NCBI GenBank assembly: GCA_030522415.1
Contig: CM060104.1
Location: forward strand, 26,822,825 to 26,886,824
Direction: 5' to 3'
DNA: 64,000 nucleotides
DNA from: Channallabes apus
Taxonomy: Eukaryota > Chordata > Actinopteri > Siluriformes > Clariidae
Positions 1,151 to 64,000 of the stretch are shown one piece after another. The position numbers were made by a program, and so were the translations under genes. Numbering within the stretch: the first letter of the stretch is position 1; the number at the start of each line of letters is the position of its first letter. The notes under the pieces were generated by a model. That model was given only the letters and a program-made list of their open reading frames with translations. It did no database searches and had not been told where the DNA came from.

Positions 1151-1430
1151 ATTTAAACAACCAGGATGTGGGCTCATTTCCAAAAAACTATGAGTGTTTT
1201 ATTATAACACACTCACACGCAGTGTGCTTTAGTTTTCTATATTGGATTCTTCTCCACTGGTAAGGTAGGTTTTTAACTTTTGTACTGTTTTTGAAACACA
1301 ATTGGTTCTTACTGTATACTGTACCTAGTTTTTGCTGTTTGGTAGTGTTGATTACAGTGTGATTGAAGTAGGTCTAAAGCAAATTGTTCTCAGGTAATTA
1401 ATCAACAGTAGTTTCAGGCTTCCTTAAGGT
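1151..1430. other. AT-rich spacer, no feature
   Basis: No coding or RNA feature is seen. It holds two adjacent TACTGTA heptamers at 1310 and 1317, treated with the scar set. Confidence 0.3.
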
Positions 1431-4400
1431 GTGAATTGTGGGCAGGGCTTAGCTACTTATATTGAAGGTGTCTCCGCTACAGACACAAGTGTCTGTAGCG
1501 GTTAATAAGCATATACTACAACAAAGTTAGTTAGCAATCTAGATAGCAAGTGCAGAGAATTGACTCAAACTCTTGTTCACCAAGTTTTATAGACAATTAC
1601 TTCAGTCTACAGTAGCATGTGTCTTCAAACTATCTCTGTCAGTGCTCACAGACCAAGATGCTTTTACTCACACAGCAGAGGCAGATCCTCCAGAAACCTC
1701 ATCTACCCTCCAATTCTGTCTCATTGCCCTGCACTGGTGGTAGGTGGGCTCTGGAACTGCCAATCTGCTGTAAAGAAAGCAGATTTTATCTCTGCAATAG
1801 CTACCCATTACTCTTTTGACTTTCTGGCACTAACTGAGACCTGGATATCTCCTCAGAACTCTGCTACACCTGCTGCCCTATCCTCTGCCTATGTATTCTC
1901 TCATACTCCACGAGAAACTGGTAGAGGTGGTGGTACAGGTCTCCTGTTGTCCAAGAGATGGTCCTTCTCGCCAATCCCCCTGTCTCATCTCAGTTTTTCA
2001 TCATTTGAATTTCATGCAGTTAAGGTAACCTCTCCAATTAACCTCCACATCTTAGTTATTTACCGTCCTCCTGGCTCTCTAGGAAACTTTCTAGATGAAA
2101 TGGACATTCTTCTTAGTCTTTTTCCTTCTGTTAACACTCCTCTCACTGTTCTAGGAGATTTCAACCTTCCATCTGACAAACTCCAATCCTCTTTCCTTCT
2201 CCCTCTACTTAACTCCTTCTCTTTAACTCTAAACAGCTGCCCTCCCACACACAAGGCAGGGAATTCTCTCGATCTCGTTTTCTGCCGTCCTTGCCCAGTC
2301 ACGGATGTCATTACTATTCCTCTTCATAAATCTGATCATTACCTGGTATCCTTCACCATAACCCTTCCTATTCTATGTAAACATAATGACCAAAATTTCT
2401 CTTTTTCTCGCAGAAACCTTCACTCTGTCTCCCCCGCCTCTGTGTCTTCATGCACCCTATCATCCCTCCCAGACCCAACCTCCTTCTCCTCTCTACCACT
2501 AGAGACTGCGACTGAAACTTTCCTCTCCTCTCTCTCCTCATCCATAGATCTCCTTTGCCCGCTGTCATCTAAACCAAGGAAGACGTCTTGTCCTGCTCCT
2601 TGGCTATCAGATGTACTACGCAACAACAGGAGAGAATTAAGAACTGCAGAGAGAAGATGGAAGAAATCGCAACTTGATGCAGATCTCATCTCTTACCAGA
2701 CTCTTCTCTCCAAATTCTCATGTGCTGTGACTTCTGCCAAAACTACCTTCTTCAGAGACAAGCTGGAAGCCGCTGCACATGATCCTGGCAAACTCCACAA
2801 CATCTTCTCCTCACTACTCAACCCACCAACTCCTCCTGCCCCTTCCTCTCTGACTGCTGACGATTTTGCCACATTCTACGATGGGAAAATTGCAGCAATC
2901 CGCCAGTCCTTCGCTCCCAACCAAACTCCTACAGCAGAACCTCAGGACCTTCCCTTCCCTCCTTTAGCAGAATTCTCCAACTTGTCATCTGATGAGATTC
3001 AGCAGATCATCTCGTCATCTAACCCCACCACCTGTTCATTAGACCCAATCCCCTCCACAATGCTCCAGGCAATCTCACAAGACCTCCTTCCCTTCACCAC
3101 AACCATCATCAACCATTCCATATCATCTGGTCATGTTCCTGCTGCTTTTAAGAAGGCAAGGGTTATTCCCATCCTCAAGAAACCCTGCCTGGACCCATCA
3201 GAAGTTAACAACTATCGCCCGGTATCACTTCTCTCTTTTATTTCCAAAATTCTTGAAAGAACTGTTTATAACCAAATGTCTCTTTATCTCTCACAGAACA
3301 ACCTTAATGATCCCAACCAATCTGGATTCAAAGTGGCACATTCCACAGAGACTGCCCTTCTGTCAGTCACTGAGAAGCTCCATGCTGCTAGATCTGCTAA
3401 ACTGTCATCTGTTCTCATCCTCCTGGACCTGTCAGCTGCATTTGACACGGTGAACCACAAGATTCTATTATCTATTCTTACAAGCCTTGGAATTTGTGGA
3501 ACAGCGTGGCAATGGTTTGCTTCTTACCTAGAAGATAGGTCATATGAGGTAACATGGAGGGGATCTACATCTGCTCCACATAGACTATCTACTGGTGTCC
3601 CACAGGGCTCAGTACTTGGTCCTCTTCTGTTCTCCCTCTATACCCAGTCTCTTGGTAAAGTCATATCATCGCATGGATTTTCATACCATTGTTATGCAGA
3701 TGACACCCAACTTACTCTCTCCTTTCCTCCCTCTGACACTCAGGTTTCCACCCGGATCTCAGCATGTCTGGCAGACATCTCATCCTGGATGACTGTACAT
3801 CAGCTAAAGCTCAATCTGAGTAAAACTGAACTGTTGTTCATCCCTTGTGACTCATCCCCAGGTCAAGACCTTGTGATATCCCTGGACAACAACCAAATCA
3901 CTCCTTCAGCCACTGCCCGCAATCTTGGGGTAACCGTGGACAACCATCTGTCATTTTCCCCACACATCGCTAACCTTACTCGCTCTTGTAGATTTCTTCT
4001 TTACAATATCAGAAGAATTCGCCCATTTCTTTCTTCACAGGCTACTCAGGTGCTTGTTCAGTCCCTTGTTATTTCAAGACTGGACTACTGCAACTCACTT
4101 CTGGCAGGTCTGCCTCTGTCCACGATTCGTCCTCTGCAACTGATCCAGAATGCAGCAGCACGTCTCGTTTTTAACCTCCCCAAGTTCTCCCACACCACCC
4201 CACTCCTCCGCTCCCTGCACTGGCTTCCTGTAGCTGCCCGCATCAAATTCAAAACGCTGATGCTTGCCTACAAAGCTAAAAATGGCCCTGCACCCACTTA
4301 CCTCTCTGCTCTAATCACACCACGCACTGCACCACGTTCCCTCCGATCCTCCAGCACTGCTCGCCTCATCCCACCATCTCTCAGGGATCGAGGGCGACAT

Positions 4401-4735
4401 TCATCCAGGCTCTTTTCTGTTCTGGCACCTAGGTGGTGGAACGAACTTCCTCTAGATGTCCGTACAGCAGAGACTTTGACTATCTTTAAACGACGACTCA
4501 AGACGCATCTGTTTCTCCAGTACTTGGACTAACCCCCCCCCCCCCCCCCAAAAAAAATAAAAATAAAAAAAAACTCTCTTCCCAGTTGTGTTCGACTAAT
4601 GGCACTTAGTTATAAACCTAGTTAACCCAGTGTAAGTATGTATCCAGTGATGTTAACTTTAAAGCACTTTTTTGTAAGTCGCTCTGGATAAGAGCGTCTG
4701 CCAAATGCCTAAATGTAAATGTAAATGTAAATTAT
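1430..4735 (+). mobile_element. L2-clade LINE, near full length
   Basis: A non-LTR retrotransposon that would copy itself by target-primed reverse transcription. It contains one long open frame (1617-4532) with endonuclease and reverse transcriptase. The stop codon is followed by a C-run, an A-rich stretch and a 3' tail at about 4674-4732 reading GTAAGTCGCTCTGGATAAG then GCGTCTGCCAAATGC, ending in short AAATGT repeats. That tail with a short tandem end is typical of fish L2 elements. The 5' boundary is uncertain: a leader-like segment with an inverted CTACAGACAC/GTGTCTGTAG motif lies near 1476-1500. No separate ORF1 was seen. Target duplications were not resolved. The uninterrupted frame makes it the youngest-looking LINE in the window. 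Confidence 0.85.
1617..4532 (+). CDS. L2 endonuclease/reverse transcriptase polyprotein, 971 aa
   Basis: The protein nicks target DNA and reverse-transcribes the element RNA at the nick. The N-terminal third is an apurinic-like endonuclease: WNCQS with N48, LTETW with E74, GDFN at 180-183 and SDH at 239-241. The reverse transcriptase follows: NNYRPVSLLS near 530, catalytic D610 in [17 protein letters not shown] at 660-668, and YADD at 693-696 giving D695 and D696. The C-terminus has the LINE-typical region with RPLQLIQNAAARL and FKRRLKTHLF, just before the stop. All expected catalytic residues are present and there is no frameshift or internal stop. The first ATG of the frame was taken as start; it lies three bases after a TACAGTA heptamer, so the true start could lie elsewhere. 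The element may be active, though this cannot be judged from sequence alone. Confidence 0.88.
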   Translation: MCLQTISVSAHRPRCFYSHSRGRSSRNLIYPPILSHCPALVVGGLWNCQSAVKKADFISAIATHYSFDFLALTETWISPQNSATPAALSSAYVFSHTPRETGRGGGTGLLLSKRWSFSPIPLSHLSFSSFEFHAVKVTSPINLHILVIYRPPGSLGNFLDEMDILLSLFPSVNTPLTVLGDFNLPSDKLQSSFLLPLLNSFSLTLNSCPPTHKAGNSLDLVFCRPCPVTDVITIPLHKSDHYLVSFTITLPILCKHNDQNFSFSRRNLHSVSPASVSSCTLSSLPDPTSFSSLPLETATETFLSSLSSSIDLLCPLSSKPRKTSCPAPWLSDVLRNNRRELRTAERRWKKSQLDADLISYQTLLSKFSCAVTSAKTTFFRDKLEAAAHDPGKLHNIFSSLLNPPTPPAPSSLTADDFATFYDGKIAAIRQSFAPNQTPTAEPQDLPFPPLAEFSNLSSDEIQQIISSSNPTTCSLDPIPSTMLQAISQDLLPFTTTIINHSISSGHVPAAFKKARVIPILKKPCLDPSEVNNYRPVSLLSFISKILERTVYNQMSLYLSQNNLNDPNQSGFKVAHSTETALLSVTEKLHAARSAKLSSVLILLDLSAAFDTVNHKILLSILTSLGICGTAWQWFASYLEDRSYEVTWRGSTSAPHRLSTGVPQGSVLGPLLFSLYTQSLGKVISSHGFSYHCYADDTQLTLSFPPSDTQVSTRISACLADISSWMTVHQLKLNLSKTELLFIPCDSSPGQDLVISLDNNQITPSATARNLGVTVDNHLSFSPHIANLTRSCRFLLYNIRRIRPFLSSQATQVLVQSLVISRLDYCNSLLAGLPLSTIRPLQLIQNAAARLVFNLPKFSHTTPLLRSLHWLPVAARIKFKTLMLAYKAKNGPAPTYLSALITPRTAPRSLRSSSTARLIPPSLRDRGRHSSRLFSVLAPRWWNELPLDVRTAETLTIFKRRLKTHLFLQYLD

Positions 4736-5028: not shown

Positions 5029-5830
5029 TATAATAATAATAATAATATGAATGAATATACAACAACCAGTAACAATGACTTTGCCTCATGAGATTTGAAC
5101 TCATGTACAACTCTTGCAATACACTGTAATCTAAATACACCGTTCAAACACACACACAAGCAAGTACTGTATAGTACACCAAAACAAATAACCTTACAAA
5201 TTGCCTATTAGATAGACAGTAATGAATAAAAAGCAGTTTATATGTTACCGTTCTTTATATAGCCTAGTAACCAATAAAAAATGCTTGAAACATTTCAAAA
5301 TCAATGCAGACACTCCAGAGTCTGGTGATGTGACTTACACACAGAACAGCAGTCGCTGTTGCTGTAAACAGGTTAGTTTGCTCTGCTATGCACCTTCTTT
5401 AAGTAAGAAATGTAGTAGAGACAGTGACGATAATGAGTGGTGACAGCGCTCAACAGTTAATAAAAGACATGGCCAGGCTGGGACAATGCACAATGAGAAA
5501 AGAATGCATGACTGTACAATGATCAGTCATCCTACACAGGACACTCCCTCACCTCCAATGTGACCTGACATAGAGAAAATGCCATCAGCTATAGCAATAT
5601 GCTGAGATAAATAGCAGAGGCGGTGACGTGAAGACGCAGCACATGTCCCTAGTCACAGATCAGATTACATGGATTGACAGCACCGGTCACAATGCATTAT
5701 CTCACAATGCAGCATGATTTCTATAGTAACGTTTTAAAAATATTTTTTGTTAATTTAACTTAAGAGTACTGGGGAAGAAATGTTAAAGTCAAAGCGGGAC
5801 TTTTAATTGTGCAGAATAAAAGAACATACA
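4736..5830. other. AT-rich spacer with simple repeats
   Basis: No gene is seen. It holds a short TTTA run near 4820-4840, the AAC/AAT microsatellite listed separately, and a weak antisense tRNA-like box B (GATTTGAACTC near 5092) that may be a SINE relic. An open frame at 5222-5443 has no recognisable similarity. Confidence 0.3.
4973..5047. repeat. (AAC)n(AAT)n microsatellite
   Basis: Short AAC run followed by a long, nearly perfect AAT run. Confidence 0.95.
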
Positions 5831-6305
5831 GTAGTCTTGAGAGTAAACCTACCTTTATTTCTCGATATAATCCCCTGATACACTAATTCACTCATCCCAG
5901 TGTTTCACTAATGCTTGGACACCATCAACATAGAAAGGTTACACAGTACACCGGGGCCATGATCGGACTACCTGTCGAAACCCTGGCCTCCCAGGAACTC
6001 CTTTAAATGCCTGAAACATGTGGAAAAGAGTCAGGTCAGGACTGTAACTTGTGCCAATAACTCTCAGCCGAGTTCCTGTAATGTGCAAGTGGTGTTGGTG
6101 AATGATTGGGTGTACAGTTCCCACAGACAGATGTGTCTCTTCTGCAAGTCGGTGCTGTCGATTTTCAACGCGTCCCACTTGCGTTTTACTGCGAGTTTTA
6201 CTAAGAGTCTCGTCACAGTATTGTACTCCTGTCTTCTGTCTTTATGCCACTCGCTAGGGTCATTTATGAGAAATTTCATCTCAAGTCCTGATTTGACTTG
6301 AACAG
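5827..6305 (-). pseudogene. Decayed mariner transposase
   Basis: Remnant of a mariner-family transposase on the minus strand. Reading the complement, the C-terminal end at about 5850-5920 gives ALVKHWDE, a stop, then ISVSGDYIEK and a stop, which matches the usual mariner ending (LVKRWxKCIxxxGDYxEK). Further upstream in element sense, about 5940-6060, YSPDLTLFHMFQAFKG fits the SPDLxPxDYxLFPxLK segment, whose aspartate is the third catalytic residue. Around 6100-6170 LAEETHLSVGTVHPIIH resembles the helix-turn-helix region. The central catalytic part is missing and stops interrupt the frame, so it is inactive. The part beyond 6180 (KSGLEMKFLINDPSEWHK) is not clearly mariner. Confidence 0.72.
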
Positions 6306-6309
6306 CCAA

Positions 6310-7238
6310 GTGTAGAAAAGCATCTAAGTTGATTGTTAAGTTGATGTAGTATATTAGGAATGCAGTGTATTACTGTAGATGTACAGTTACTGTATATCTT
6401 AATAATAATCAGATTTGAGGTGTTAACAGTAACTGGTCCTTATCACATTCTGCTGTTGTTGATTTATTTCCACACACAGATCCACACACTGTGCATTATT
6501 ACTTTGCTTTATAATGATATTTAATGCTGTTAATCCAATACTGTGTAGAGGTCCGTCTGGTCCTTTTTAATCAAATAAAAGGAAATGAAAAAGAGTTATC
6601 AAATATATCTGTATGAATAAGTAAATGAATGAACAGATAATAGAAAAAGAGAAAATGTAAATCTAATCTGTGCTGTTCTGCGAGTAACATCGGTACCCAG
6701 GTTCTTTCCCAATCAACCTAAAACCTCTTCCACCTGGAGGTTATTTCCTGCAGAGAGTGCTCTGTGCCATGTCACACTCCTGCGTGGTTTAACCCAGTTT
6801 GGGGCAAGGCGCCCTGCCACGATATGACTTCAATTCCACTTTTCACTTCCATTATGGGGTCAAAACAACTGTGCAGGCAGAACGGAGGTGTGGAAATGAG
6901 CTGCTGCTGCTGCTGGAAAAATAACAACAGCCCTCCCACGAGTGAAAACCTGAGGAGAGCAGTGAGGCTGATGGAGCTAGTGAAAGAAAACTAATGACCT
7001 GAGGAAGTGAGCTTTAGGGGGTGGCACGAGAAGTCAGCAGGACAAACCACGAGTCAGCGAACACATAGACCAAACAAAAAGAAAAAGACTTGTTACTGTA
7101 GGAAAAGATGAGAGTGAATTATAGAAAAGGAGGGCAGGACTATCACGCAGCCGTGAGGACAGAGGTCAGAAGATATCAACCGCTTATCTTCACCAAAACC
7201 TTTTTCAGGCAGGAGACACCTTGAACAGAGTCGAAGCC
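6310..7238. other. No feature recognised
   Basis: AT-rich to about 6660, then more balanced sequence. An open frame at 6764-6994 on the plus strand has no recognisable motif, and I do not call it a gene. Confidence 0.3.
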
Positions 7239-8439: not shown

Positions 8440-8685
8440 TCTGTCGGGATTTGTTTTTACTTTTTTTAAGGTAAAGTGCAGGTTAATTTGTCTTATTTTT
8501 ATTTTATATTTTGTGTTAATTATTTTTATGTATTCATTTGTTGGGGCTGTGGAGTGAATAATTAGAATTTCCATTATTTCTTATGGGGAAAAAAATTTGC
8601 TTTGATTTACGAGTGTTTTGGAATACAAGCCCACTTCCGGAATTAATTATGCTCGTAATCCAAGGTTCCACTGTATTAGTTTTCA
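8440..8685. mobile_element. Non-autonomous DNA repeat, pogo/Tigger-like end, copy 1
   Basis: This segment interrupts the decayed L2. It shares a block with 11385-11585: TTATGGGG, AAATTTGCTTTGAT, then GTAATCCAAGGTTCCACTGT at the right end. The end motif resembles terminal repeats of pogo/Tigger-type elements as I recall them. The class is uncertain; the pairwise repeat relationship is directly visible. Confidence 0.5.
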
Positions 8686-9197
8686 TTGTTATGCTGATGA
8701 CACACAGTTATAACAGATAGTACCAGTAATAACAGAACCGCTGTTGAGAATAATTAATTCCTCACTCAGCATTGGTTATGTTCCAAAATCTTTTAAATTA
8801 GCAGTTAACAAAACCAATAATTACGAAACCTGACCTTGACTCCTGTCAGCTGTCCAATTACAGGCCAATATCAAACCCCCCCTTTATCTCTAAGATTCTG
8901 GAAAAGATACTAGCGGAGCAGCTATGCTCATATCTACATAGAAATGGCATCAGTCAGGATTTAGGCCTCATCACAGCACAGAAACAGCACATTGTTAAAG
9001 AAGTAAATGACCTCCTATTGGCCTCTGATCAGGGTTGTGTAACTATGCTTGTATTCCTCAACCTCAGTGCAGCTTTTGACACCATTGATCATGCTATTCT
9101 TCTTAGTATTCTTCACCATTGATATTTTCTATTCTTCTATAGATAATATCCATATCAGTATGTAGACTTAAATGGTGATTATTCTGCATGGTCTCTA

Positions 9198-10151
9198 GTG
9201 GAGTTTGGAATTCCGCAAGGTTCAGTTTTAGGCCCACTGCTTTTTTCCCTTTACAGGCTTCCTCTGGGCAACATAATCCGTAAGCATGGTATTAGTTTTC
9301 ATTGTTATGCTGACGACACACAGTTATATGTCTCAGCAAAACCAGATGAGAAAATCCAGCTCACTAAAGTTGAGAAATGTGTGCAGGACATAAGAAATTG
9401 GATGCTAATTAACTTCCTTCTGCTTAATCCGGATAAGACAGACGTTCTAGTCATAGGACCGCATACAGCTACAGTCGGAGTAAAATCTTAGATCACATCG
9501 TAACTTTAGATGGCCTTTCTGTTCCATCAAGTGCAACAGTAAAAGACCTCGGCGTGATTATAGATTCCAGCCTTTCATTTGAAGCTCATGTAGATAATAT
9601 CACCAGGATAGCATTCTTTCACCTCAGAAATATTGCCAAGATAAGAAATATATTGTCGCTAAACGATGCAGAAAAACTAGTTCATGCTTTTATCACCTCT
9701 AGGTTGAACAATTGTAATGCCTTACTGTCTGGTTGTTCAGTTAGGTGCATAAACAAGCTTCAGCTAGTCCAGAATGCAGCAGCGAGAGTCCTCACTAGAA
9801 CCAGAAGATAAGCACATCACCCCTATCCTATCTTCACTACATTGGCTCCCTGTGAAATTTCGCATTGATTTTAAAATACTACTCTTGACATATAAGGCAT
9901 TAAATGGTCTCGCGCCGCAGTATCTGAGCGAACTGCTAGTGTCTTACGATCCGCCACGCCTACTTCGATCAAAGGATGCAGGCTGCTTATCAGTACCGCG
10001 TATTATGAAAACTACAGCTGGGGGCGGAGCTTTTTCTTACAAAGCCCCAAAATTATGGAATAGTCTTCCAAATAGTGTTCGGGACTCAGACACAGTCTCA
10101 GTGTTTAAGTCTAGGCTCAAAACCTATTTATTTAGCCAAGCATTTTTATAA
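9198..10151 (+). pseudogene. L2 reverse transcriptase C-terminal half, frameshifted
   Basis: Three overlapping open pieces, 9198-9491, 9554-9811 and 9774-10151, in different frames together cover the catalytic YADD block, the KDLGVIIDSSLSFEAHV segment, the QLVQNAAARVLTRTRR segment and the C-terminal PKLWNSLPNSVRDSD region. Family knowledge places these in one protein, so at least two frame changes separate them. The catalytic aspartate pair survives, but the protein could not be made as one chain. It belongs to the decayed L2 above. Confidence 0.8.
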
Positions 10152-11384: not shown

Positions 11385-11585
11385 ATTTTTACTTTTTTCA
11401 GAGGTAAACTGCATGTTAAGTTGGTTTACTTTTACTTTATATTTTGTATTCATTGTTTTTAATAATAATCTGAGTTTTCATTTTTTCTTATGGGGGAAAT
11501 TTGCTTTGATATACAAGTATTTCAATATACAGTACAAGCATGCTTTTGGAATGAATTGTGTTTGCAATCCAAGGTTCCACTGTGT
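11385..11585. mobile_element. Non-autonomous DNA repeat, pogo/Tigger-like end, copy 2
   Basis: Second copy of the repeat at 8440-8685, with the same block order and the same end (GCAATCCAAGGTTCCACTGT). It carries a TACAGTA heptamer at 11528 that is absent from copy 1. Class is uncertain. Confidence 0.5.
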
Positions 11586-11631
11586 ATATGTGAGTTTGTC
11601 AATTTTTATCAAGTTTGTGATACTAAAGAAC

Positions 11632-12623
11632 TGTGAGGGTTGCCCACTAGAGGGCAGTGTTTTAATTTGTAGTTTTTGTTGTAGACCCAGTTTCCCAGAA
11701 GGCACCTCGGTCAGCTGACGCAGATGCCCAGCTGAACCGAGGAGGCAATTAGTATAAGCATAAATACCTGTTTGTTCTGGGAAGCTGGGTCGAGCATTGA
11801 TTTCTGTTATGTGGGTTTTGTTTTGTTCTTTTCTGTTTTAGTTTAAACAGTATGGTTGGCCTTTTTGTTTCAGGAGCATTTTAAGTTAAGTTTGTATTTG
11901 CTTTGATTTAGTTTATGTCTCTTTGTCTCTGTGTCTCCTAGCAGGATTAGCCTCTAGGAGAATTAGCCTTTTGTGTTTACCCTTTTGTGTAAGTAACCCC
12001 CATTGCATGTTTAGCTGGTAGTCTGTTTCAATACTAATGAGGGTGATACTAACATGTCTAGATCTTAGTCTGTCTAGTCTTCGTGTCTGTCTAGTCTCAT
12101 TGTCTGCTTAGCTCTTAGTCTGTTTAGGTACTAACATCTTTAGCCACTAACCTTTAGAGTTCTTAGTCTGTTTCATACCTAGTCTGCTGTGTACCTTGTC
12201 TGTTCATTCCCTTGTGTCTCAGGCTACTGGCTGGTGTAGCCATTAGTCTGATTAGCTATGAGCTAGCTTAGCAGCTAATGTGCAGCTCAGCCAATAGACC
12301 TAGCCAAGCCTGTCTTGTGTTTGTTTATCCCTTGCATGCATAGTCCCTTGTGTTTAGTCCTCTAGGCTGTTTAGTATGTCTTGTCTCGTCCAGTTAGTAT
12401 CCCCATGTCTGTACTGTATTAGATCATGTCATCCTGAGTCTGTTTGTATTTTGAGTTCTTGTTTGTTAGCATGCTCCATGTTTTTAGCCAACCTCCGTGG
12501 TTCATGTTCATGTTTGCTTTTTGTTTGTTTGATTATTAAAGACTCTTTGCGTTTCACTGCATCCCCTCTGCATCTATGCCTCCACACCAAGCCCACAGTC
12601 CAACATCATAGCAGAACGTGACA
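11632..12623 (+). repeat. 5' LTR
   Basis: This 992-bp LTR has a TATA-like TATAAGCATAAATACC near 11753, the likely promoter, and ATTAAA at 12535-12540, the likely polyadenylation signal. The middle (about 11990-12370) is a loose series of TTAGTCTG/TAGCC phrases. The open frame at 12376-12621 is repeated identically in the other LTR and is not a gene I recognise. Confidence 0.9.
11750..11770 (+). promoter_or_regulatory. Putative LTR TATA box
   Basis: TATAAGCATAAATACC lies about 120 bp into the LTR, a plausible U3 promoter position. The same sequence recurs in the 3' LTR near 14004. Confidence 0.45.
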
Positions 12624-12765: not shown

Positions 12766-13887
12766 GTGAGGGGGCCTCAGTGGAGGCTCCAGTTTCGCCA
12801 GCGGGCCTCAGTGGAGGCTCCAGTTTCGCCAGCGGGCCTCAGTGGAGGCTCCAGTTTCGCCAGCGGGCCTCAGTGGAGGCTCCAGTTTCGCCAGCGGGCC
12901 TCAGTGGAGGCTCCAGTTTCGCCAGCGGGCCTCAGTGGAGGCTCCAGTTTCGCCAGCGGGCCTCAGTGGAGGCTCCAGTTTCGCCAGCGGGCCTCAGTGG
13001 AGGCTCCAGTTTCGCCAGCGGGCCTCAGTGGAGGCTCCAGTTTCGCCAGCGGGCCTCAGTGGAGGCTCCAGTTTCGCCAGCGGGCCTCAGTGGAGGCTCC
13101 AGTTTCGCCAGCGGGCCTCAGTGGAGGCTCCAGTTTCGCCAGCGGGCCTCAGTGGAGGCTCCAGTTTCGCCAGCGGGCCTCAGTGGAGGCTCCAGTTTCG
13201 CCAGCGGGCCTCAGTGGAGGCTCCAGTTTCGCCAGCGGGCCTCAGTGGAGGCTCCAGTTCCGCCAGCGCGCCGCAGGGGCGTCTTCATGTCCCCAGAGCC
13301 CAGCCAGGACCTCGCCAGGGAAAACCCTCACCACGCTCTCTAGCTTCGTTCACAGCGGTGACAGCGACCCTCCACCGCCAGACTTCGAGAGCGTGCTTCC
13401 ATCGCCACCCGGTGTCAAAGGAGGCCACAGTACTGCAGAGGCCGCCCGGCGTGAGGACAACACAGTGCTGCATCGGCCGCCCGACTTGGAGGGCGACTCA
13501 GTGCTGCAGGCAGCGCTCCACCGGCAAGAGCGACTCAGCACTGCCTCCAACGCCCGGCCTACACCAGCGATCCGGCACTGCCTCCGCCGCCCGGCCTGCG
13601 GCATCGGCCCAGTGCTGCCTCCGCCACCCGACGACGTCATGAGCTCACCGCCGCTCAGCCCCGAGGACGAGCCGTTGCTGCCTCCGCCACCCAGCCTCGG
13701 GTGCAGGCCGCTGCTGCACCCGGTGCCTGGCTTTGGCGGCGGTTCAAGCTCGCCCACCCTCCCACCCACCTTGGGGGGCCTGCTCGTCGGCGTCGCAGTC
13801 GGGTGGAATGACCCGGGACATGGGGAAGGGTACCCAGGACCTCCGTTAGCGCTCCGGAGGAGCGTTTTTAAGGGGGGGGTACTGTGA
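12766..13887 (+). CDS. Open frame across the LTR-element interior, 373 codons, doubtful
   Basis: This frame runs through the 31-bp minisatellite, giving a 31-residue repeat (segments such as GPQWRLQFRQRASVEAP), then a proline-rich tail with LPPPPDDV and LLPPPPS. Because 31 is not a multiple of three and the unit has no stop in any frame, all three frames are open and cycle through the same peptide. The length is therefore not evidence of a protein. The proline-rich tail from about 13260 resembles GC-rich DNA upstream of the polypurine tract in some fish Gypsy elements, from memory. No gag, protease or polymerase motif is present. It runs four codons into the 3' LTR. I regard translation as unlikely. 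Confidence 0.25.
   Translation: MRGPQWRLQFRQRASVEAPVSPAGLSGGSSFASGPQWRLQFRQRASVEAPVSPAGLSGGSSFASGPQWRLQFRQRASVEAPVSPAGLSGGSSFASGPQWRLQFRQRASVEAPVSPAGLSGGSSFASGPQWRLQFRQRASVEAPVSPAGLSGGSSFASGPQWRLQFRQRAAGASSCPQSPARTSPGKTLTTLSSFVHSGDSDPPPPDFESVLPSPPGVKGGHSTAEAARREDNTVLHRPPDLEGDSVLQAALHRQERLSTASNARPTPAIRHCLRRPACGIGPVLPPPPDDVMSSPPLSPEDEPLLPPPPSLGCRPLLHPVPGFGGGSSSPTLPPTLGGLLVGVAVGWNDPGHGEGYPGPPLALRRSVFKGGVL
12773..13268 (+). repeat. 31-bp minisatellite, 16 copies
   Basis: Unit begins GGCCTCAGTGGAGGCTCCAG and ends TTTCGCCAGCG. Sixteen head-to-tail copies fit exactly 496 bp, nearly perfect, with a changed base in the last copy. It lies inside the LTR element. The unit contains CCTCAGTGGAGG, an imperfect palindrome. 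Confidence 0.97.
13869..13882 (+). promoter_or_regulatory. Polypurine tract of the LTR element
   Basis: AAGGGGGGGGT lies immediately before the 3' LTR, where plus-strand DNA synthesis of LTR elements is primed. Confidence 0.75.
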
Positions 13888-14874
13888 GGGTTGCCCACTA
13901 GAGGGCAGTGTTTTAATTTGTAGTTTTTGTTGTAGACCCAGTTTCCCAGAAGGCACCTCGGTCAGCTGACGCAGATGCCCAGCTGAACCGAGGAGGCAAT
14001 TAGTATAAGCATAAATACCTGTTTGTTCTGGGAAGCTGGGTCGAGCATTGATTTCTGTTATGTGGGTTTTGTTTTGTTCTTTTCTGTTTTAGTTTAAACA
14101 GTATGGTTGGCCTTTTTGTTTCAGGAGCATTTTAAGTTAAGTTTGTATTTGCTTTGATTTAGTTTATGTCTCTTTGTCTCTGTGTCTCCTAGCAGGATTA
14201 GCCTCTAGGAGAATTAGCCTTTTGTGTTTACCCTTTTGTGTAAGTAACCCCCATTGCATGTTTAGCTGGTAGTCTGTTTCAATACTAATGAGGGTGATAC
14301 TAACATGTCTAGATCTTAGTCTGTCTAGTCTTCGTGTCTGTCTAGTCTCATTGTCTGCTTAGCTCTTAGTCTGTTTAGGTACTAACATCTTTAGCCACTA
14401 ACCTTTAGAGTTCTTAGTCTGTTTCATACCTAGTCTGCTGTGTACCTTGTCTGTTCATTCCCTTGTGTCTCAGGCTACTGGCTGGTGTAGCCATTAGTCT
14501 GATTAGCTATGAGCTAGCTTAGCAGCTAATGTGCAGCTCAGCCAATAGACCTAGCCAAGCCTGTCTTGTGTTTGTTTATCCCTTGCATGCATAGTCCCTT
14601 GTGTTTAGTCCTCTAGGCTGTTTAGTATGTCTTGTCTCGTCCAGTTAGTATCCCCATGTCTGTACTGTATTAGATCATGTCATCCTGAGTCTGTTTGTAT
14701 TTTGAGTTCTTGTTTGTTAGCATGCTCCATGTTTTTAGCCAACCTCCGTGGTTCATGTTCATGTTTGCTTTTTGTTTGTTTGATTATTAAAGACTCTTTG
14801 CGTTTCACTGCATCCCCTCTGCATCTATGCCTCCACACCAAGCCCACAGTCCAACATCATAGCAGAACGTGACA
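13883..14874 (+). repeat. 3' LTR
   Basis: This 992-bp copy shows no difference from the 5' LTR by eye, including the TATA-like motif and ATTAAA at 14786-14791. It is followed by the AGAAC target duplication. Confidence 0.9.
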
Positions 14875-21545: not shown

Positions 21546-21734
21546 TACATTTAGGCATTTGGTAGATGGTCTTATCCAGAGCGACTTACATTTTTATCTC
21601 ATTACACATCTGAGCAGTTGAGGGTTAAGGGCCTTGCTCAAGGACCCAACGGTGGCAACTTGGTGGTTGTGGGGTTTGAACCTGGGATCTTCCGAACCAT
21701 ACAGTAGTCCAATGCCTTAACCACTGAGCCAGGG
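21546..21734 (-). mobile_element. tRNA-derived SINE with L2-type 3' tail
   Basis: Well-preserved antisense copy. It has the tail TTTAGGCATTTGGTAGATGG and TTATCCAGAGCGACTTACAT, the body GAGCAGTTGAGGGTTAAGGG and CTTGCTCAAGGACCCAACGG, and the head GGGTTTGAACCTGGGATCT (box B) and CCTTAACCACTGAGCC. A TACAGTA heptamer at 21700 is an exact 5-bp excess over the copy at 20250. Confidence 0.9.
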
Positions 21735-41815: not shown

Positions 41816-44814
41816 TACATATACCTTACAGGCTTCTTTAAAGTTACCCAATCCTGAAATCACACCAGTTTGGGATCAAAATAAAGCCTTAATATAATTA
41901 ATTAAAGACTTATGCTAAAGTCCTGAAGATTTAAAAATGAAAAAAACAAAAATGTTGATGGAAATCAGCATTAAAATATGAAGAGATTAATCAGGACATT
42001 CCTAAAAGACAAGAGTAAACAAGAATGCTCTAATAATATAAAGTAATAATATGACTCCATTTATTAACATTTATTTTTTTTTACATTAAATGAAGTAAAG
42101 CTCTTAGCCTTAAAATAAGAGCTTTTACCTTCCTTAAAATCTCTTTAAGGATAAGTGTATGAATTATCCTTAAAGAGATTTAAACACTTTATACCTAAAC
42201 AGAGTAATATTACAGTACAAATCTAGCTGCAAGGAGCGATTAATGTGTCCAAGCACGGGTAGTGTAGCAGAGTCTAGCTAATTATTATACTGCATCACTG
42301 AATGTGCACGCGAACTTCATCACACTTTAATGTCATATATGATGCTTTCCACATCAGGCAGGATGTTAGTTTGATAGAAAACAAATCAACTCCTTCTGAC
42401 CAATCAGAATCCAGAATTCAACTGTTGTATAGAATCATTATACACTAACTGACCATCTCTGTTACTTGATACTGTATGCTACACATTTGGTTACTTAATA
42501 TAGTAATAAATGAATATGGAGTGTGTTCTGAGTAGAAAACATGTCCCACTGTAATTATACCCATACATACTGTACACCAGCTTTAAGAGTACCTCTGAAC
42601 AACGAATCAACACTGGCATCTAGTGGAAGTGGAAGTGCAAGGCCAGTATAAACACACTACTTCTAAGAACTTCCAGAGCTTTCTTTTTTTAGTTTGAATG
42701 AGGAAACATACATCAGGAGACGAGTGAGCATGATTGTGTTTGTGTTCAGGGCTTCGCTCTGGTCTGATGCTTCACACATCTCAACAGCCTGAACAGTCAG
42801 GACACTGATTCTCTGATTTCCCTCAGCACTGTGTGATGGATGTTTCCTCATCGCATGAAAAGTCCTGCCTTCCTCATGACAGGCTGCAAGAAATGATGTC
42901 TGGGATGTCTTCATGCACAAAAGCACTGCATTCCAGTTTCCTACTGACACCCAGTGATTCCTTCTGAAATACTGAATGTATACAGTATAATGTGCCAAAT
43001 AGGCTTATGTCCTAAAATACTGTACATTGACAAGCTTTTAAACTCCACCACTGTTCAATGACTGTTCAATTAAAGTCCACCCTGAGAACCAGTAAGTATC
43101 TTTAGACTGAAATATTTGTCATGTTTGTAGCAGTTTCGCTATGAATTTCTCATATTTCTCATTGTTGAAGTAATGTTGTTATTCCCATCAGACATCAGTG
43201 GTTGTGCATAAAACATTCTTATTGCTAACACAGTTGAAAAGCTTAATAGGAGAAAATAATTTATATATTCCTGGTCCAAAACAGAAGTGATAATGATAGC
43301 ATTTAACGTCACATTAGAGAGAACCTCGTTTTGGCTAGCTCGAGATGATGGTGTTGACGCCAGTATTAGCATGTAAGGTTTTGGAGGCCGATGGCAGGTA
43401 GACGGCATTCTGGGTAAATGTAAGAATTGGTCATTAGCCGAAGTTATAGGCAAATGGACAACAGGTTAATGGGAAAAAACAAGATAAAACATATCACAGA
43501 CAGTGTTGAAAATCGATTCATTAGGATGATATTAATTGTAATAAGATTATAATAATACTAATGTAATTCCGCTGGTTTTGTTCAAACCCAAGTCAGATAA
43601 ACAGCACATCAGTGCACACCTGTGTCTTTACAGTTCAGTGTTCAGGATGTGGATTGGGAATGCAGCCTAGAATTCTTTCTGATTGTGTGTTGATGTATCT
43701 CTATCACAGCTGTGAGATTAGTGACAGATGCAGTTTTTCCTCACCTTTTCCTCACCAAATGCTCTAATAGAAATAGATCTCTGCACCAGATGTTCACCTC
43801 AATGTTACATCCCTTTTGAGTTAATTAATACTTTCAGTGCCCGAGACAGCAACCAGATCAAGCAAGAGTGCAAGCTGAAGCTCATGGACGGATGCTTGTG
43901 AGGGTTGCTTCCAGCTGATGAGAAAAGAGAAGACAGCAGTGCTGACAGGAGGAGACAGGAACGAGACACCAGGAGCACGAAAACTGCAGGAAGCAATTAA
44001 AGTTCAATCAGTCGCTATAGAATCGCTAGAATCGCAAATGTTGCACATCTTCACTTTGCACAGACGTTTACCCTCCACCCATACCTTCCAGTTAGTACAC
44101 ATTATCTTACCCTTTTCCAGTGGACACTATGCTCCTTTATTCTATTAATTACCCATGAATCAGCTGCCACTTCTACATTAAAGCCAAGGCCAGCTGAGGA
44201 CATGCCTATCAGTGAAGAGAACAGGAAATTAAAGTCGCCTTCTTAACCTCTCCATCAAGAAGTTTAATGTGAGAAGCAGCAGGCACACGGAGGCTGGTCT
44301 TGTCTCCGTAAAAAAGAGAAATGAACAAATTCTTCCTCATAAAATGAAAAGACACAGCGAGAGAAATTCCATAACTGTATTCTCATTCCTCATCGGTTTG
44401 TCAGACTCATCCCTCACTCTGAGCGCTGCCCTGCCTCCACGTTAATTCCAAACTTTCACTCACACAGCCTGGATTAATACTGACACTACAAAAGCATATT
44501 TCACACCCTGTACACAAACTGTACTGTATCATGCACATTTAATCAGTGCAGCAATATGGGCTAGCAGCAGAGCCTTCTGGGAATAGAAGAGAAGGGAAGA
44601 GGAGTGAAGAGAAAAGAACAGAACAGAAGAAAGGCCTACTACTGTCAGCTGATCAGGGTTGTGTCTCTTCACTTGTGTTACTTCACTTTTGTGCAACAGT
44701 GATCATATTCTTCTTCTTCATAGAATAGAAAATGCAGTATGAGTTAAGGGAACGGCTCTCTCCTGACTCTGGTATTACTGTACAGTACTGTATTTGATTG
44801 ATTGGTATTAGTTT
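41816..44814. other. No gene; long low-repeat stretch
   Basis: No gene is recognised. 42395-42423 (GACCAATCAGAATCCAGAAT) recurs at 46170-46198 and looks like an end of a dispersed DNA repeat. An 18-bp hairpin is at 42137-42181. Open frames here carry no known motif. Confidence 0.3.
42137..42181. repeat. 18-bp perfect hairpin
   Basis: AAATCTCTTTAAGGATAA at 42137-42154 and its exact complement at 42164-42181, loop of 9 bases. Confidence 0.9.
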
Positions 44815-44968
44815 GTAGATGTACAGTACAATAAATGGTGATTATTCTATGGGTACTAAAGTAAATTCTGGTGTTCCACAGGGTTCTGTTTTAGGCTCAG
44901 TGCTATTTTCTCTTTACATGCTTACTCTGGGTAACATAATTCGTACAGTAAATATGGCATTAGTGTGA
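44815..44968 (+). mobile_element. L2 reverse transcriptase fragment
   Basis: A short piece of the decayed L2 family at 7655-10623, matching about 9165-9310. ATAAATGGTGATTATTC, then a frame reading [18 protein letters not shown], and GGGTAACATAATTCGTA. Truncated on both sides and directly followed by the 14-bp minisatellite. It contains a TACAGTA at 44944 that is an exact 5-bp excess over the parent copy. Confidence 0.85.
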
Positions 44969-48031: not shown

Positions 48032-48150
48032 TAACTTTAATTCAATTTTATTCTATTTTATTTGTATATCGTTTTTAAAAATGTACAGTCACAAAGCAGC
48101 GTTACACAATCAAAAGAATTATTTAAGTTTGTATAAAATGTGAATGTGTA
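48032..48150 (-). mobile_element. L2 3' end fragment
   Basis: TTTAATTCAATTTTATTC, TATTTGTATATCGTTTTTAA and CAGTCACAAAGCAGCGTTAC match the antisense L2 3' end at 20900-20970. Only the extreme 3' end is present. Confidence 0.7.
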
Positions 48151-48796
48151 TTGATGAAAATGATAAGATTTAAACCTTTTCTATTTCTTTCATCTCCTTA
48201 CTTTTTTCTTGATTCTCCTCTCCTCTTCACTCCTTTCATTTCTTCATCTATTCTCCTCTCCTCCTCTCCTCCTCTTTCCTTCTCTTCACTCCTGCAGCTA
48301 CTCACACTGTACATCAGAAAGAATAAAGCATTTCCCCAGTGTTTAATCACCTGCTGATCCCGCCCACCAGCCAGCTCTCCCTCACCGTGATTCGCTACTA
48401 ACACTGTGATTGACAGCAAACACATCTACTCTGACAGGATGAAAGAGTTCCTTTGATTTTTTTTTCTCCCCTTAAATGCACAAATATTTTACTCCCCCCG
48501 CTGAACACCCTGCAGCAGGTGCACCCCAGCACCTCCACGCTCCTGTGATAAATACAGAGGCTGGATTTTTGGACCACATGAAGGCCTGAGGGTGAAGATA
48601 ACACGAGTCCTTTAGGACTGAGCAGGATAATCGACACACTGCATTCCTCTTGCTGCTTTGGTGAGCACAGAGGATTCTGTACTGTACTGAACTGATGTTC
48701 CAGATGTGTACAGTGCATACACACCAAAAGGCCAGGTGATGAAAAAAACGCTAGGTGAGATGCAGCCTGTAAATTTAAGGTATGAAGCTATATATA
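48151..48796. other. No gene; CT-rich stretch
   Basis: Pyrimidine-rich from 48180 to 48295, then unremarkable. Confidence 0.35.
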
Positions 48797-49060
48797 TGAA
48801 TGCACGATAGCTTAGTGGTTAGCACGGTCGCCTCGCACCTCCAGGGTCAAGAGTCTGTGTGCATGTTCTCCCCGTACTTGGTGGCTTTCATCCAGGTATG
48901 TCGGTTTCTTGTTTAGCAAATTAGGCCAATTGGTGTTGCAATGTTGACTGGGGGTCCCGCCCTGGTCGTAAAAAATGGGAATAAATACAGTGGTCATCAC
49001 TGGCCCTCACAATCCCTGGTTGGACCACAGAGATTCCTAGATGGATAGATGGATGAGGGA
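48797..49060 (+). mobile_element. SINE with Mermaid-like head and different tail
   Basis: Head GATAGCTTAGTGGTTAGCAC and GGTCGCCTCGCACCTCCAGG, body GTGTGCATGTTCTCCCCGT. After about 48930 it departs from the other copies and ends with CCCTCACAATCCCTGGTTGG and ATGGATAGATGGATG. The box B region is deleted. Confidence 0.65.
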
Positions 49061-49682
49061 TAAAGCTATATAATATAATACAGTAAGTTTGCGGAGTCTA
49101 AGATCAAACAGAAATCTAAAAAATTCTGTTAATACTGTATAAGAAAAATGCTAAAAACAATTATGATGCATACTGTATATATCGTAATTGTAAAAAATAT
49201 TACACGTACTCCATCTGCATGATTTATTCCTTCAATAGATAATTGCCACGTTCTGCATCCATCATTTACTCTCTGTTCAGTCTCATGACCAAGTTTTAAA
49301 AACACCAATGAAGGTGAGGTTTTCATGTTAAAGGAAACAGAGAAGAAGTAAAGCAAGAAAGAGGAGGATAAATGAAAAAGGACATGAAGCATCAAGCCAA
49401 GCATGCCTGATTTCCCTGCAGAGCATGATGCCCAAATCTTTCTCTCAGCTGATTGGATCCTAAGAGGGATGAAGCGGAGAGACAGCACCTTCTCACGCTG
49501 CTCAGTGGCTCCTCACACACAGATGAGCTCGACAGAGAGGAGGAAAATTGTAAGAGACATCTTTCTCCTGAATAAAAACCCAGTTCAGCCTCAGCGGTCT
49601 CCGAGCGGACATGGACAGGGTTCAGACACAGCTGCTCGGAGATTACTTCAGCTCATCTTCAGCCCTCTGACAGTGTGCTCTG

Positions 49683-49758
<76 letters not shown>

Positions 49759-50679
49759 AGGGAGTAGTGCTTCATTTTCAAACACAAAACTGCAGTGATG
49801 CAGCTGATATCCTGCTTTGTTGGGTTTTAATGAAGTGTGAACTCCACTGGAGGACTACAGTCTTTGATTTCCAGTACGATAGAAACGACTTGGGATTTTT
49901 TTTTCTCCACAAAGTGTATTTGTGTAACCTACTGTAACTGTCCAGAACAGTGTGTTACACATGATGTCAATTATAGGTTCCACCAGAGGAGGTACTTTGA
50001 AATTGTAACATTGGGAATTACACACTGGTCACTTTAACTATCGGAATCAAATCCAAATCTGAATCTGAGGAAGTTTCCCCAAGCGGATATCGGACTTCAT
50101 GATAAACACACGTTTGTAAGAAATATGATGACCTGAATGACCTCTTGTCATGATATTAATTCTAATTTCCATTTCTAGTAACACTTAAAAAAACAGGATC
50201 TTCCTTTGAAGAAGAATAAAATAAGCTGTTCCACTCCACAGAGACTAGTACTGAGTGTCTTACTGGACATGAGGGGGGACAGGAAACACAAAAGCCACAT
50301 AACAGAAGAAAATATACAGTATACATACTGTACTGTAGACAAACGATGGCCTGTTTTGATGAGAGATATGGTGTGGGTCAGTGTAAGAAGAGTCAGTGCC
50401 AGACATGGTTGTTTTTTGTTTGTTTATTTCTTTGTGAAGTAAATGACAAAATAATTAAACTAAAACTAATTTTTGCAAAACTTAGAATGGATTTCTGTGA
50501 TGTTAAGTACTCCAGACGACTGTTTGCAAGAATCCACTTAAATCTTTGTGCTTTTATATAATTTATTTTTACATCTCACTCTGAACCACATTCATGTAGA
50601 AGTAAGTGATTTACAAAAAAAAAGCAATGATTATTATGATAAATAAACAATAATAAGAATGATTGTAATATGTTAGCAT
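49061..50679. other. No gene; one long GT microsatellite
   Basis: A GT run lies at 49685-49756. Nothing else is recognised. A cluster of TACAGTA/TACTGTA heptamers lies at 50315-50337. Confidence 0.4.
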
Positions 50680-50866: not shown

Positions 50867-51703
50867 TTGAATAATTGTAAAATAACAATATTTGTTAATT
50901 ATTTAATCTCAGTGTCAATCAAAACCATACTTGATTCCCAGCCAGTGCCCAAACCCAAACCCCAGCCAGTGACCAAACCCCAGCCAGTGCCCAAACCCAA
51001 ACCCCAGCCAGTGCCCAAACCCCAGCCAGTGCCCAAACCCCAGCCAGTGCCCAAACCCCAGCCAGTGCCCAAACCCAAACCCCAGCCAGTGGCCAAACCC
51101 CAGCCAGTGCCCAAACCCCAGTCAGTGCCCAAACCCAAACCCCAGTCAATGCCCAAACCCCAGCCAGTGCCCAAACCCAAACCCCAGTCAATGCCCAAAC
51201 CCCAGCCAGTGCCCAAACCCAAACCCCAGCCAGTGCCCAAACCCAAACCCCAGCCAGTGCCCAAACCCAAACCCCAGTCAGTGCCCAAACCCAAACCCCA
51301 GTCAGTGCCCAAACCCCAGCCAGTGCCCAAACCCCAGCCAGTGCCCAAACCCAAACCCCAGTCAGTGCCCAAACCCAAACCCCAGCCAGTGCCCAAACCC
51401 AAACCCCAGTCAGTGCCCAAACCCAAACCCCAGCCAGTGCCCAAACCCCAGCCAGTGCCCAAACCCCAGCCAGTGCCCAAACCCCAGTCAGTGCCCAAAC
51501 CCCAGCCAGTGCCCAAACCCCAGTCAGTGCCCAAACCCCAGTCAGTGCCCAAACCCCAGCCAGTGCCCAAACCCAGACCTCAGTCAGTGCCCAAACTGTT
51601 GGCAGTGCCAGTCCCAAGGAGGGTTGGGTCAGAATTGACATTCGTTGTTAAACTTGTGCCAAGTTGTGTGCTCATTGAGTGGTCAGCTGTGGCAACCCCA
51701 TGA
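50867..51703 (+). CDS. Open frame across a minisatellite, 278 codons, doubtful
   Basis: The frame encodes a monotonous chain of PKPQPV and PKPKPQPV modules between a short hydrophobic start (NCKITIFVNYLISV) and a non-repetitive end (SELTFVVKLVPSCVLIEWS). Module lengths are multiples of six bases, so once one frame is open it stays open, and the minus strand is open too (GLGTGWGL-type repeats). There is no domain, no evident splice context and no TATA-like signal tied to it. A proline/lysine-rich repeat protein is possible, but the array explanation is simpler. The flanking direct repeats suggest the array sits inside an older duplicated or mobile unit. Confidence 0.25.
   Translation: MNNCKITIFVNYLISVSIKTILDSQPVPKPKPQPVTKPQPVPKPKPQPVPKPQPVPKPQPVPKPQPVPKPKPQPVAKPQPVPKPQSVPKPKPQSMPKPQPVPKPKPQSMPKPQPVPKPKPQPVPKPKPQPVPKPKPQSVPKPKPQSVPKPQPVPKPQPVPKPKPQSVPKPKPQPVPKPKPQSVPKPKPQPVPKPQPVPKPQPVPKPQSVPKPQPVPKPQSVPKPQSVPKPQPVPKPRPQSVPKLLAVPVPRRVGSELTFVVKLVPSCVLIEWSAVATP
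50939..51601 (+). repeat. 18/24-bp minisatellite
   Basis: Modules CCCAAACCCCAGCCAGTG (18 bp) and the same with an added CCCAAA (24 bp), about 30 in all, mixed in irregular order with GCC/GTC variants. C-rich on the plus strand. Confidence 0.96.
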
Positions 51704-53921: not shown

Positions 53922-54152
53922 GCAGTGGTGGTTCAGAGGGCTAAGGCACTGAGTTACCGACCGGAAGATCGGCGGTTCGATCCCCAGCTCCACCAGGTTG
54001 CCACTGTTGGGCCCTTGAGCGAGGCCCTTAACCCTATCTGCTCCAGGGATGCTGTATCATGGCTGACCCTGCGCTCTGACCCCAATTACGCTGGGATATG
54101 CGAAGAAGGAATTTCACTGTGCTGTAATGTATATGTGACAAATAAAGGCTTA
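53922..54152 (+). mobile_element. tRNA-derived SINE, AATTTCACTGTGCT-tail family, full length
   Basis: Head GTGGTGGTTCAGAGGGCTAA (box A-like) and GGTTCGATCCCC (box B), then GGGCCCTTGAGCGAGGCCCT and CTGACCCTGCGCTCTGACCC. The tail is GGAATTTCACTGTGCTGTAA then GTGACAAATAAAGGC. A well-preserved copy that serves as reference for 41597-41800 and 22231-22400. Confidence 0.92.
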
Positions 54153-54382
54153 ACAAATACCACCTCCAAACACCAAACTATCAACCTTGTTTACTGATTT
54201 AATGGGTGGGTAAATTGTAGTTGTCCAAAACGTATTGACTTGCTGGAGTCAGTTTGACTTATTTGACAAAGAAAAACATGTGTGTTTACCAGCAGATGGG
54301 GAAATACCGCAATGGACCAGTAGGTATTGTTCAGCACTTTCACCTCTGAGCTTGGAGTACCACAAAAGGGATTTGAAAAAAA

Positions 54383-54520
54383 AAAAATACAGATCAGAAG
54401 GTTGTAGGTTCAAATCCCCACCCCCTGTTTGACACTTGACCCTCAACTGCTGAGATGTACAGTATAGTGAGATAAATGTACAGTAAGTCTGTCTGGATAA
54501 GGCTTAGGCCAATTGCCTTG
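54383..54520 (+). mobile_element. SINE with L2-type 3' tail, 5'-truncated
   Basis: ATCAGAAGGTTGTAGGTTCAA (box B), CTTGACCCTCAACTGCTGAG and the L2-type tail GTCTGTCTGGATAAGGCTTA. Two TACAGTA heptamers (54458, 54479) are each an exact 5-bp excess over the copy at 21546-21734. Confidence 0.85.
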
Positions 54521-60685: not shown

Positions 60686-60697
60686 ACAAGTGACGCA

Positions 60698-61067: not shown

Positions 61068-61079
61068 ACAAGCGACGCA

Positions 61080-62715: not shown

Positions 62716-62723
62716 GTTCTTGC

Positions 62724-63509: not shown

Positions 63510-63517
63510 GTTCCTGC

Positions 63518-64000
63518 CAATGTGGTACAAGTTCTTGCATTTTGAACTCATCCGAGTTTATGCATTTTTTTGTGTGAGTGTGGTCCACGTTTGGGAAACG
63601 GTGGCTTAAGCCTATGTTCATTCATTTAAATTTATGTATAACCAATAGTTAACCTCAAGTCTCCATGTCACAGTAATTTGTCTACCAAGTTCTATGTCAA
63701 AAAAGTAACGATTTATTTCTAGTTTATGATGCAAAAGTAGGAGATGCAGCATCAAGTCCTTATTTTCTATCTTCTGATTTTTATTTCTAGCTTATGCCAA
63801 GTCAGGTGTTATACATTTTAAAGCGAATGCTGTTTCTTCAGGACAATGGACACAAACACTCAGGGCAGCGAACACCTACTGTACAGTACAGTACTGTAAG
63901 AGACAGGACAAACAGAACACTGCTGTGAACTGTAGAGGAAATCGGTAGTGTGTAAACCCTGACTTTAACCATACAATGATTGTTGTAATAAATCAGCAAT
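63518..64000. other. No gene recognised
   Basis: AT-rich, ending in the strongest TACTGTA/TACAGTA cluster of the window at 63877-63898. Confidence 0.35.

Follow-up and report, generated by a model that had tools for sequence, protein, structure and literature searches.

Excised transposons normally leave nothing visible to annotation, and the steps by which an element is cut out and the broken ends are joined are established for Sleeping Beauty (SB). The SB transposase makes its cuts three nucleotides in from the ends of the element, and a footprint results when the 3' overhangs are sealed by end joining (PMC7827188); this footprint reads TAC[A/T]GTA after excision of an engineered SB element in HeLa cells (PMC3432063). 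Here, the two words TACAGTA and TACTGTA (TACWGTA, hereafter the heptamer) were studied in a stretch of 64,000 nucleotides from the catfish Channallabes apus (assembly GCA_030522415.1, contig CM060104.1, positions 26,822,825 to 26,886,824), called the window below, and in samples of the same genome. Most of these heptamers are, very probably, canonical excision footprints of SB-type Tc1 transposons with CAG tips.

The heptamers share with the SB footprint the same seven bases, the TA target and the net gain of 5 bp (PMC3432063; PMC4378557); whereas in the SB studies the element was remobilised experimentally, in HeLa cells and in tumours of mice, the catfish genome holds a natural record of about one heptamer per kb with signs of decay. 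ZB, a native zebrafish Tc1/mariner transposon, has an SB-like structure and prefers ATATATAT targets, but its footprints, which span zero to three bp, come from donor plasmids in cultured cells and not, as here, from natural genomic sites (PMC7913693). A comparison of Asian and African rice likewise searched genome-wide for natural traces of DNA-transposon excision and gave 94 putative excisions, 8 of them “perfect” and the rest with deletions or filler, insertions being more numerous than excisions (PMC4423477). Unlike in rice, the canonical footprint is abundant in C. apus, being more numerous than copies of the single young CAG-tipped element that was counted. In Caenorhabditis elegans, Tc1 excision is likewise followed by host repair, but germline repair is reported to proceed by homologous recombination, which masks excision (PMC13148408), whereas the scars described here imply that overhang-preserving end joining was common in the germline of this animal. 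A channel catfish paper uses “transposon footprints” loosely, about the abundance of Tc1 sequences (PMC5953449), and no natural footprint census in a fish came up in searches of an open-access library, subscription journals lying outside this coverage. The mechanism is already known, and its scale appears to be new.

Abundance of the heptamer

The window (GC content of 41.7%) contains 41 TACAGTA and 47 TACTGTA, i.e., a field of 88 heptamers extending over 1310-63898 with no strand assigned, the last copy being at 63892-63898. Under an order-2 Markov model, 11.1 were expected on both strands (Poisson P(≥88) = 9e-48), which confirms that the excess is real. A first-pass annotation made from the letters of the window had estimated about 87 copies against about a dozen expected at a GC content near 40%, and these figures are close to those obtained by counting. 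No other TA-NNN-TA word was similarly enriched in the window, the runners-up being TAAAATA (30) and TAAATTA (24), and the control words TAGACTA/TAGTCTA and TACACTA/TAGTGTA occurred 3 and 19 times, respectively, the latter at twice its expectation of 9.2. The middle base was balanced between A and T (41:47, P = 0.59), as predicted by random mismatch repair. The sequences flanking the heptamers are diverse and their conservation ends about 3 bases out; a single dispersed repeat was therefore ruled out as the origin of the heptamers.

The same excess was observed across the genome (1,164,683,209 bases, 1.16 Gb, in 93 contigs), which was sampled through 20 stretches, each 10 kb long and placed at round coordinates of contigs C1 to C12, hand-picked rather than drawn as a formal random sample, and through a second set of 29 loci around copies of a short interspersed nuclear element (SINE), covering 93.5 kb. 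Labels of the type L0xx denote these fetched loci outside the window, and “264 kb” denotes the window together with the 200-kb sample. The sample contained 192 heptamers (960/Mb) against 35.6 expected (5.4-fold) and was enriched in the heptamer over related control words, so that, at the scale of this sample, the comparison proposed in the first-pass annotation came out in its favor; each of the 20 stretches, with 3 to 27 heptamers, exceeded its expectation of about 1.8. The SINE loci gave 87 heptamers, or 930/Mb. Over the 264 kb, TACWGTA occurred 280 times against 46.7 (6.0-fold), followed among TA-NNN-TA words by TACCGTA (2.4-fold), and among words of the form TA-N{1,2,4}-TA only simple repeats (TATATA, TATATATA, TAATAATA) exceeded 3-fold. 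Extrapolation to the whole genome yields an excess of 0.91 million (bootstrap 0.66 to 1.22 million), a number of heptamers and not of events. With the mouse genome taken as 2.7 Gb, the density in mouse is about 1/9 (relative to the sample) to 1/12 (relative to the window) of the density found here. More than 300,000 TACAGTA/TACTGTA sites are given for the mouse genome (PMC4378557), i.e., about 110/Mb.

Words differing from the heptamer by one base were also over-represented in the sample, chiefly those reached by a transition (TATAGTA, 44 vs. 23.5; TACAATA, 58 vs. 43.5; TACAGTG, 61 vs. 45.7), as expected from decaying scars. From the ratio of the neighbor excess to the intact excess, the mean divergence of the scars was estimated by hand, very roughly, at 5-8%, the neighbor total counting TACCGTA/TACGGTA twice. 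This last pair was itself in excess (20 vs. 7.2), which may be caused by a separate element starting with CCGTAAAAAATACGGTA or by A-to-G decay. An inverted-repeat element starting with CCGTAAAAAATACGGTA and adjoining TA lies at L035:8689-9526 and is a possible reason for that excess. The transition-type neighbors bear on the idea that the heptamer is a regulatory or structural motif maintained by selection. This idea, which has its abundance in its favor (no specific search for function was made), appears extremely unlikely for a word that occurs about once per kb, is found inserted in SINE and L2 copies and is accompanied by an excess of transition-type neighbors.

Insertions relative to repeat copies

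Heptamers lying in repeats were compared with paralogous copies, either as they stand or after removal of 5 bp (“emptied”). At 11528-11534 (+), the heptamer lies in a repeat akin to one carrying the tip CAGTGGAACC beside TA at 8673, and the copy at 8557-8674 aligns without gaps only after the removal. The same was observed for two SINE-like repeat copies, at 21700-21706 (+) and 41747-41753 (+), with 34 and 30 empty paralogs, respectively, for a repeat at 28609-28615 (-), with two paralogs, and for a SINE tail at 54479-54485 (+), with four. A second heptamer in this tail, at 54458-54464 (+), was gap-free with six paralogs when emptied and with two as it stands. The scar at 44944-44950 (+) shifts by 5 bp the frame of an L2 reverse-transcriptase relic. 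With the scar emptied, the relic and 9211-9296 form an alignment of 86 columns free of gaps; the frame at 9147-9488, matching this relic, matches RVT_1. Together with 41323, for which the match is short (37 columns), the sites at 11528, 21700, 41747, 44944, 54458 and 54479 gave a better match with a repeat copy once 5 bp had been taken out, whereas those at 33779, 12412, 14663, 33827 and 59202 were not improved. Hence, removal was favored for 7 of 12 window heptamers against 5 of 37 controls, one of these controls lying 12 bp from a scar.

Pooling the window and the fetched loci gave 367 heptamers, of which 361 were far enough from an end to be queried. Among the 54 with paralogs, a gap-free alignment was obtained solely in the emptied form for 18, solely in the unaltered form for 17, in both forms for 3 and in neither for 16, as compared with 8, 220, 43 and 100, respectively, among 371 control words with paralogs. 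The contrast between the emptied-only and as-is-only classes is strong (Fisher, 1.3e-12, members of the same family being counted as separate cases). Besides the two SINE-like copies described above, L009:2652 had 17 empty paralogs. An exact gain of 5 bp at TA relative to an unoccupied paralog is thus borne out for the heptamers as a class, although not for every copy.

The converse approach was to list insertions from repeat alignments with clean flanks, blind to the heptamer, an insertion being considered well supported when lacked by at least two partners. Nine of the ten well-supported 5-bp insertions were at or beside a heptamer, as against 1 of 116 among insertions with any other length of at most 15 bp (p = 6e-12). 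When a single partner was accepted, which admits much alignment noise, 16 of 56 5-bp insertions carried the heptamer and the other length classes at most one each.

These bare insertions bear on the possibility that the heptamers are the termini of families of miniature inverted-repeat transposable elements whose inverted repeats start with CAGTA, i.e., ends of elements and not traces of their excision. CAG-tipped elements flanked by TA do exist in this genome, and the window holds a weak inverted-repeat pair (48103-49139, 22/30 bases) with one arm starting with TACAGTATT. Against this, nothing is conserved inward past the heptamer, the 264 kb contain five inverted-repeat pairs tipped with TACAG (two for the reversed control) and none tipped with CAGTA, and paralogs differ by a bare 5 bp with no element. 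Such an origin is accordingly regarded as very improbable, and excision footprints as the preferred reading.

Target-site signature and chains

Both flanks of 242 isolated heptamers from the 264 kb were read outward from the TA, with all TA dinucleotides as the reference. T was enriched at the first position (0.41 vs. 0.31, chi-square p = 1e-11) and at the third (0.46 vs. 0.32, p = 1e-10), while at the second T was depleted and A and G were enriched (p = 2e-6); no significant bias was observed from the fourth to the eighth position (p = 0.06 to 0.20). The outward triplet TAT occurred 51 times against 18.8 expected. The triplet GGT had the highest ratio (12 vs. 4.0), ahead of TAT, but with so few occurrences it carries little weight. 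Taken together, the flanks read ATA-TA-TAT, a palindromic ATATATAT preference limited to 3 bases per side, and the same signature was found in the window alone (n = 72 sites). This is in line with the ATATATAT target preference of ZB, described as resembling those of SB and Bari (PMC7913693). The signature speaks for insertion, since it would not be expected around a motif that has nothing to do with insertion.

Some heptamers overlap in a 5-bp register. The window holds a chain of four at 63877-63898 (TA-CTG-TA-CAG-TA-CAG-TA-CTG-TA) and a chain of three at 44776-44792 (CTG, CAG, CTG), both with no strand assigned, as well as a chain of two at 50326-50337 (-). Overall, neighboring heptamers followed each other at a register of 5 bp in six pairs and of 7 bp in two. 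When scarring was simulated on the window, in 150 runs without target preference and 40 with it, 5-bp pairs averaged 1.3, with a maximum of 7 and 5, respectively, and none of the 190 simulations gave a chain of four. In the 200-kb sample, the register was 5 bp for six pairs and 7 bp for one. Beyond the chains, the clustering of the window heptamers was slight.

This excess of chains over the simulations is what would be expected if CAGTA/CTGTA were a 5-bp slippage unit, or the product of another sequence-biased mutation, in which no transposon took part. As a source of the heptamers in general, such a process is highly unlikely: 72 of the 88 window heptamers are isolated (chains and two duplicates being dropped), the flanks carry the ATATATAT signature, and CAG and CTG units are mixed within the chains, which argues against pure slippage. 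Under the footprint interpretation, hot targets, repeated visits and slippage may possibly have combined to build the chains.

Candidate source elements

A young element, F1, was found in the sample as a copy of 1,622 bp at L035:1210-2831 and another of 1,615 bp at L039:6283-7897, 97% identical, together with an 882-bp derivative at L031:665-1546. Its tips, CAGTGGTGTGAAAAACTATTTGCC, adjoin TA, and all eight F1 tips in the sample are preceded by TA. On both sides of the L035 copy, the tip of the inverted repeat carries GTGTGAAAAACTATTTGCC, with TGTGTGAAAAAGTAATTGCC following some 183 bp further in; the L039 copy has near-identical inner copies of the tip motif. A tip motif with a second copy further in is the arrangement of SB. 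Two reading-frame pieces of the L035 copy match PF25787 HTH_SB, PF01498 HTH_Tnp_Tc3_2 and PF13358 DDE_3, and the solved relatives found for it were four structures, all of SB transposase, the best being 5cr4 (SB100X, E = 5e-55). The reading frames are interrupted in both copies examined (L035 and L039). By its CAG tips, SB-like repeats and SB-type transposase domains, F1 is a Sleeping Beauty-like Tc1 element, and the L035 copy directly adjoins a heptamer.

The 200-kb sample contains eight F1 tips, i.e., about five elements, against an excess of about 156 heptamers, or roughly 30:1. Since other CAG-tipped families exist, with tips CAGTGGAACC... and those of a Tc1 relic in the window, and were not fully counted, the ratio of heptamers to all CAG-tipped elements is below 30. 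F1 may thus be proposed as one candidate source of the footprints. The relic in question is a decayed Tc1 element at 31820-33243 (+) with tips CAGTCGTGGCCAAAAG (right) and CATGTCGTGGCC (left) and a fragment matching HTH_Tnp_Tc3_2. Heptamers adjoin it at 31809, 33244 and 33251, and one lies inside at 31906. No copy of its tip was found in the 200-kb sample, and the relic is therefore unlikely to be the main source.

Sites departing from the insertion pattern

Several observations weigh against reading every heptamer as a separate excision. No F1 tip was found in the window by the tip search. Two of the nine heptamer-associated insertions that were well supported (L038:3876 and L048:7954) fall at an identical position of the SINE and may go back to a single event. 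Among the 54 heptamers with paralogs, the 16 fitting neither way are uninformative and three fit both ways. In addition, 12 of the 17 as-is sites share the word with a copy within four families and hence represent copies and not separate events. The first family joins L033 and L049; the second, L034:348 and the window sites 33827 and 59202; the third, L037, L039, L043 and L044:9452, lying in L037 inside an inverted-repeat element (5035-6614); and the fourth, L050 and the window sites 12412 and 14663. The remaining as-is sites, L017:1926, L019:1809, L027:2506, L040:3724 and L044:1009, match a differing word without gaps, as does the 33827/59202/L034:348 family. On these alignments, the five sites and this family look like substitution, or decay of the partner, and not insertion. 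Finally, the heptamer at 33779-33785 (+) is a counter-example, not being a 5-bp insertion relative to its paralogs, since the copies differ by other gaps, and that at 33827-33833 (-), with its copy at 59202, is a probable one, being a word of its repeat family for which L039:9063 reads TTCTTTA without gaps.

In the informative tally, 18 insertion-type sites therefore stand against five sites and one family that resemble substitutions, with 33779 as a further exception. Such a minority is expected, as about 47 of the 280 heptamers should be due to chance. The exact presence or absence of 5 bp at TA, on which the first-pass annotation had staked its reading, holds between repeat copies for most informative sites, the 18, and fails for these others; in the material compared, neither of the two outcomes that it had named as refuting was observed. 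Its broader claim of a dense excision record stands as to the insertions, the flank signature and the resident element, while some copies were inherited and 33779, and probably 33827/59202, arose otherwise.

These sites are also what gives substance to the alternative that the heptamer simply belongs to the sequence of repeat families and spread as these were retrotransposed or transposed, or that it arose by substitution, few excisions being needed. The 12 word-sharing sites, the five sites and one family resembling substitutions, and a SINE subfamily that may carry the heptamer (54458) all agree with it. As a general explanation it is nevertheless improbable, because the 18 insertions of 5 bp are missing in paralogs (17 to 34 empty copies for some of them), no paralog was present in the window and fetched loci for 307 of the 361 heptamers queried, and substitution does not account for the 6-fold enrichment of a single word whose flanks carry a target-site signature. 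Copying and substitution account for a minority of the heptamers. For the majority, the SB-type footprint reading of the first-pass annotation is supported by the excess, the exact 5-bp insertions at TA, the ATATATAT signature and the young resident element.

The heptamer lies at the same TA of three SINE tails (L038:3876, L048:7954 and window 54458), possibly owing to the amplification of a scarred master copy or subfamily, or to a hot target struck repeatedly. A young SINE copy is found at 53930-54154 (GCTGTAATGTA...TATGTGACAAATAAAG), with 39 other genomic places at 95-98% identity among the 40 scored of 3,771 first-look candidates.

Other features of the window

An L2-type retrotransposon frame of 979 codons, open throughout and with endonuclease and reverse-transcriptase domains, occupies 1593-4529, and a sequence near 4685-4706 resembles the SINE tails found elsewhere in the window. 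The suggestion that scars avoid young DNA was tested here and is weak. The L2 reading frame and a Rex1 element indeed contain no heptamer (2.5 and 1.9 expected, respectively, the former from the TA count), but an older broken L2 (7870-10148) is likewise empty with 3.75 expected, so that the absence is not specific to young DNA. One heptamer, at 1608, lies within the stop-to-stop L2 frame just ahead of the first ATG. The hAT element reported in the first-pass annotation was not found by a few motif searches and by Pfam scans of 21 distinct window frames only.

Two copies of 994 bp, 100% identical (11630-12623 and 13881-14874), flank a minisatellite of 16 copies of 31 bp (12772-13276) and may stem from a duplication of very recent date, from a young repeat or from an artefact of assembly; a stretch of L050 is 99.4% identical to part of them. 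A proline-rich tandem array (CCCAGCCAGTGCCCAAAC...) lies at 50937-51596 within an open frame of 278 codons. Outside the window, inverted-repeat arms extend over about 3 kb at L045:4132-7116, with 30/30 bases in each listed pair, forming a large palindrome or an inverted duplication.

Discussion

The heptamers may be accounted for by the following sequence of events. An SB-type element would insert at TA, duplicating it, and its transposase would later free it by cuts placed three bases in from either end, so that the flanks keep 3' overhangs of CAG and CTG. These overhangs would then be paired, with one mismatch between them, by the end-joining machinery of the cell, and repair of the mismatch would give TA-C(A/T)G-TA, a net insertion of 5 bp. 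Such events would have taken place in the germline and subsequently been fixed, and F1 and other CAG-tipped families may have contributed. A record of scars this dense suggests that end joining preserving the overhangs is frequent in the germline. Because each scar shifts the reading frame, excision would not restore a disrupted gene.

Taking these elements together, we lean somewhat toward a wider proposal, in which excision of SB-type transposons would have been, in this lineage, one of the leading ways in which short insertions arose. It would have left about a million fixed footprints and thus far more departures than surviving elements, with germline breaks routinely closed by overhang-preserving end joining. 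Scars visited again would have built mixed CAG/CTG arrays of 5-bp units, i.e., microsatellite-like tracts made by transposons.

Exact scars make it possible to count, from sequence, insertions that were later lost, to address their timing through scar decay and to approach the mode of germline repair. The presence or absence of scars would also provide many phylogenetic markers, although the chains suggest that some sites were hit repeatedly.

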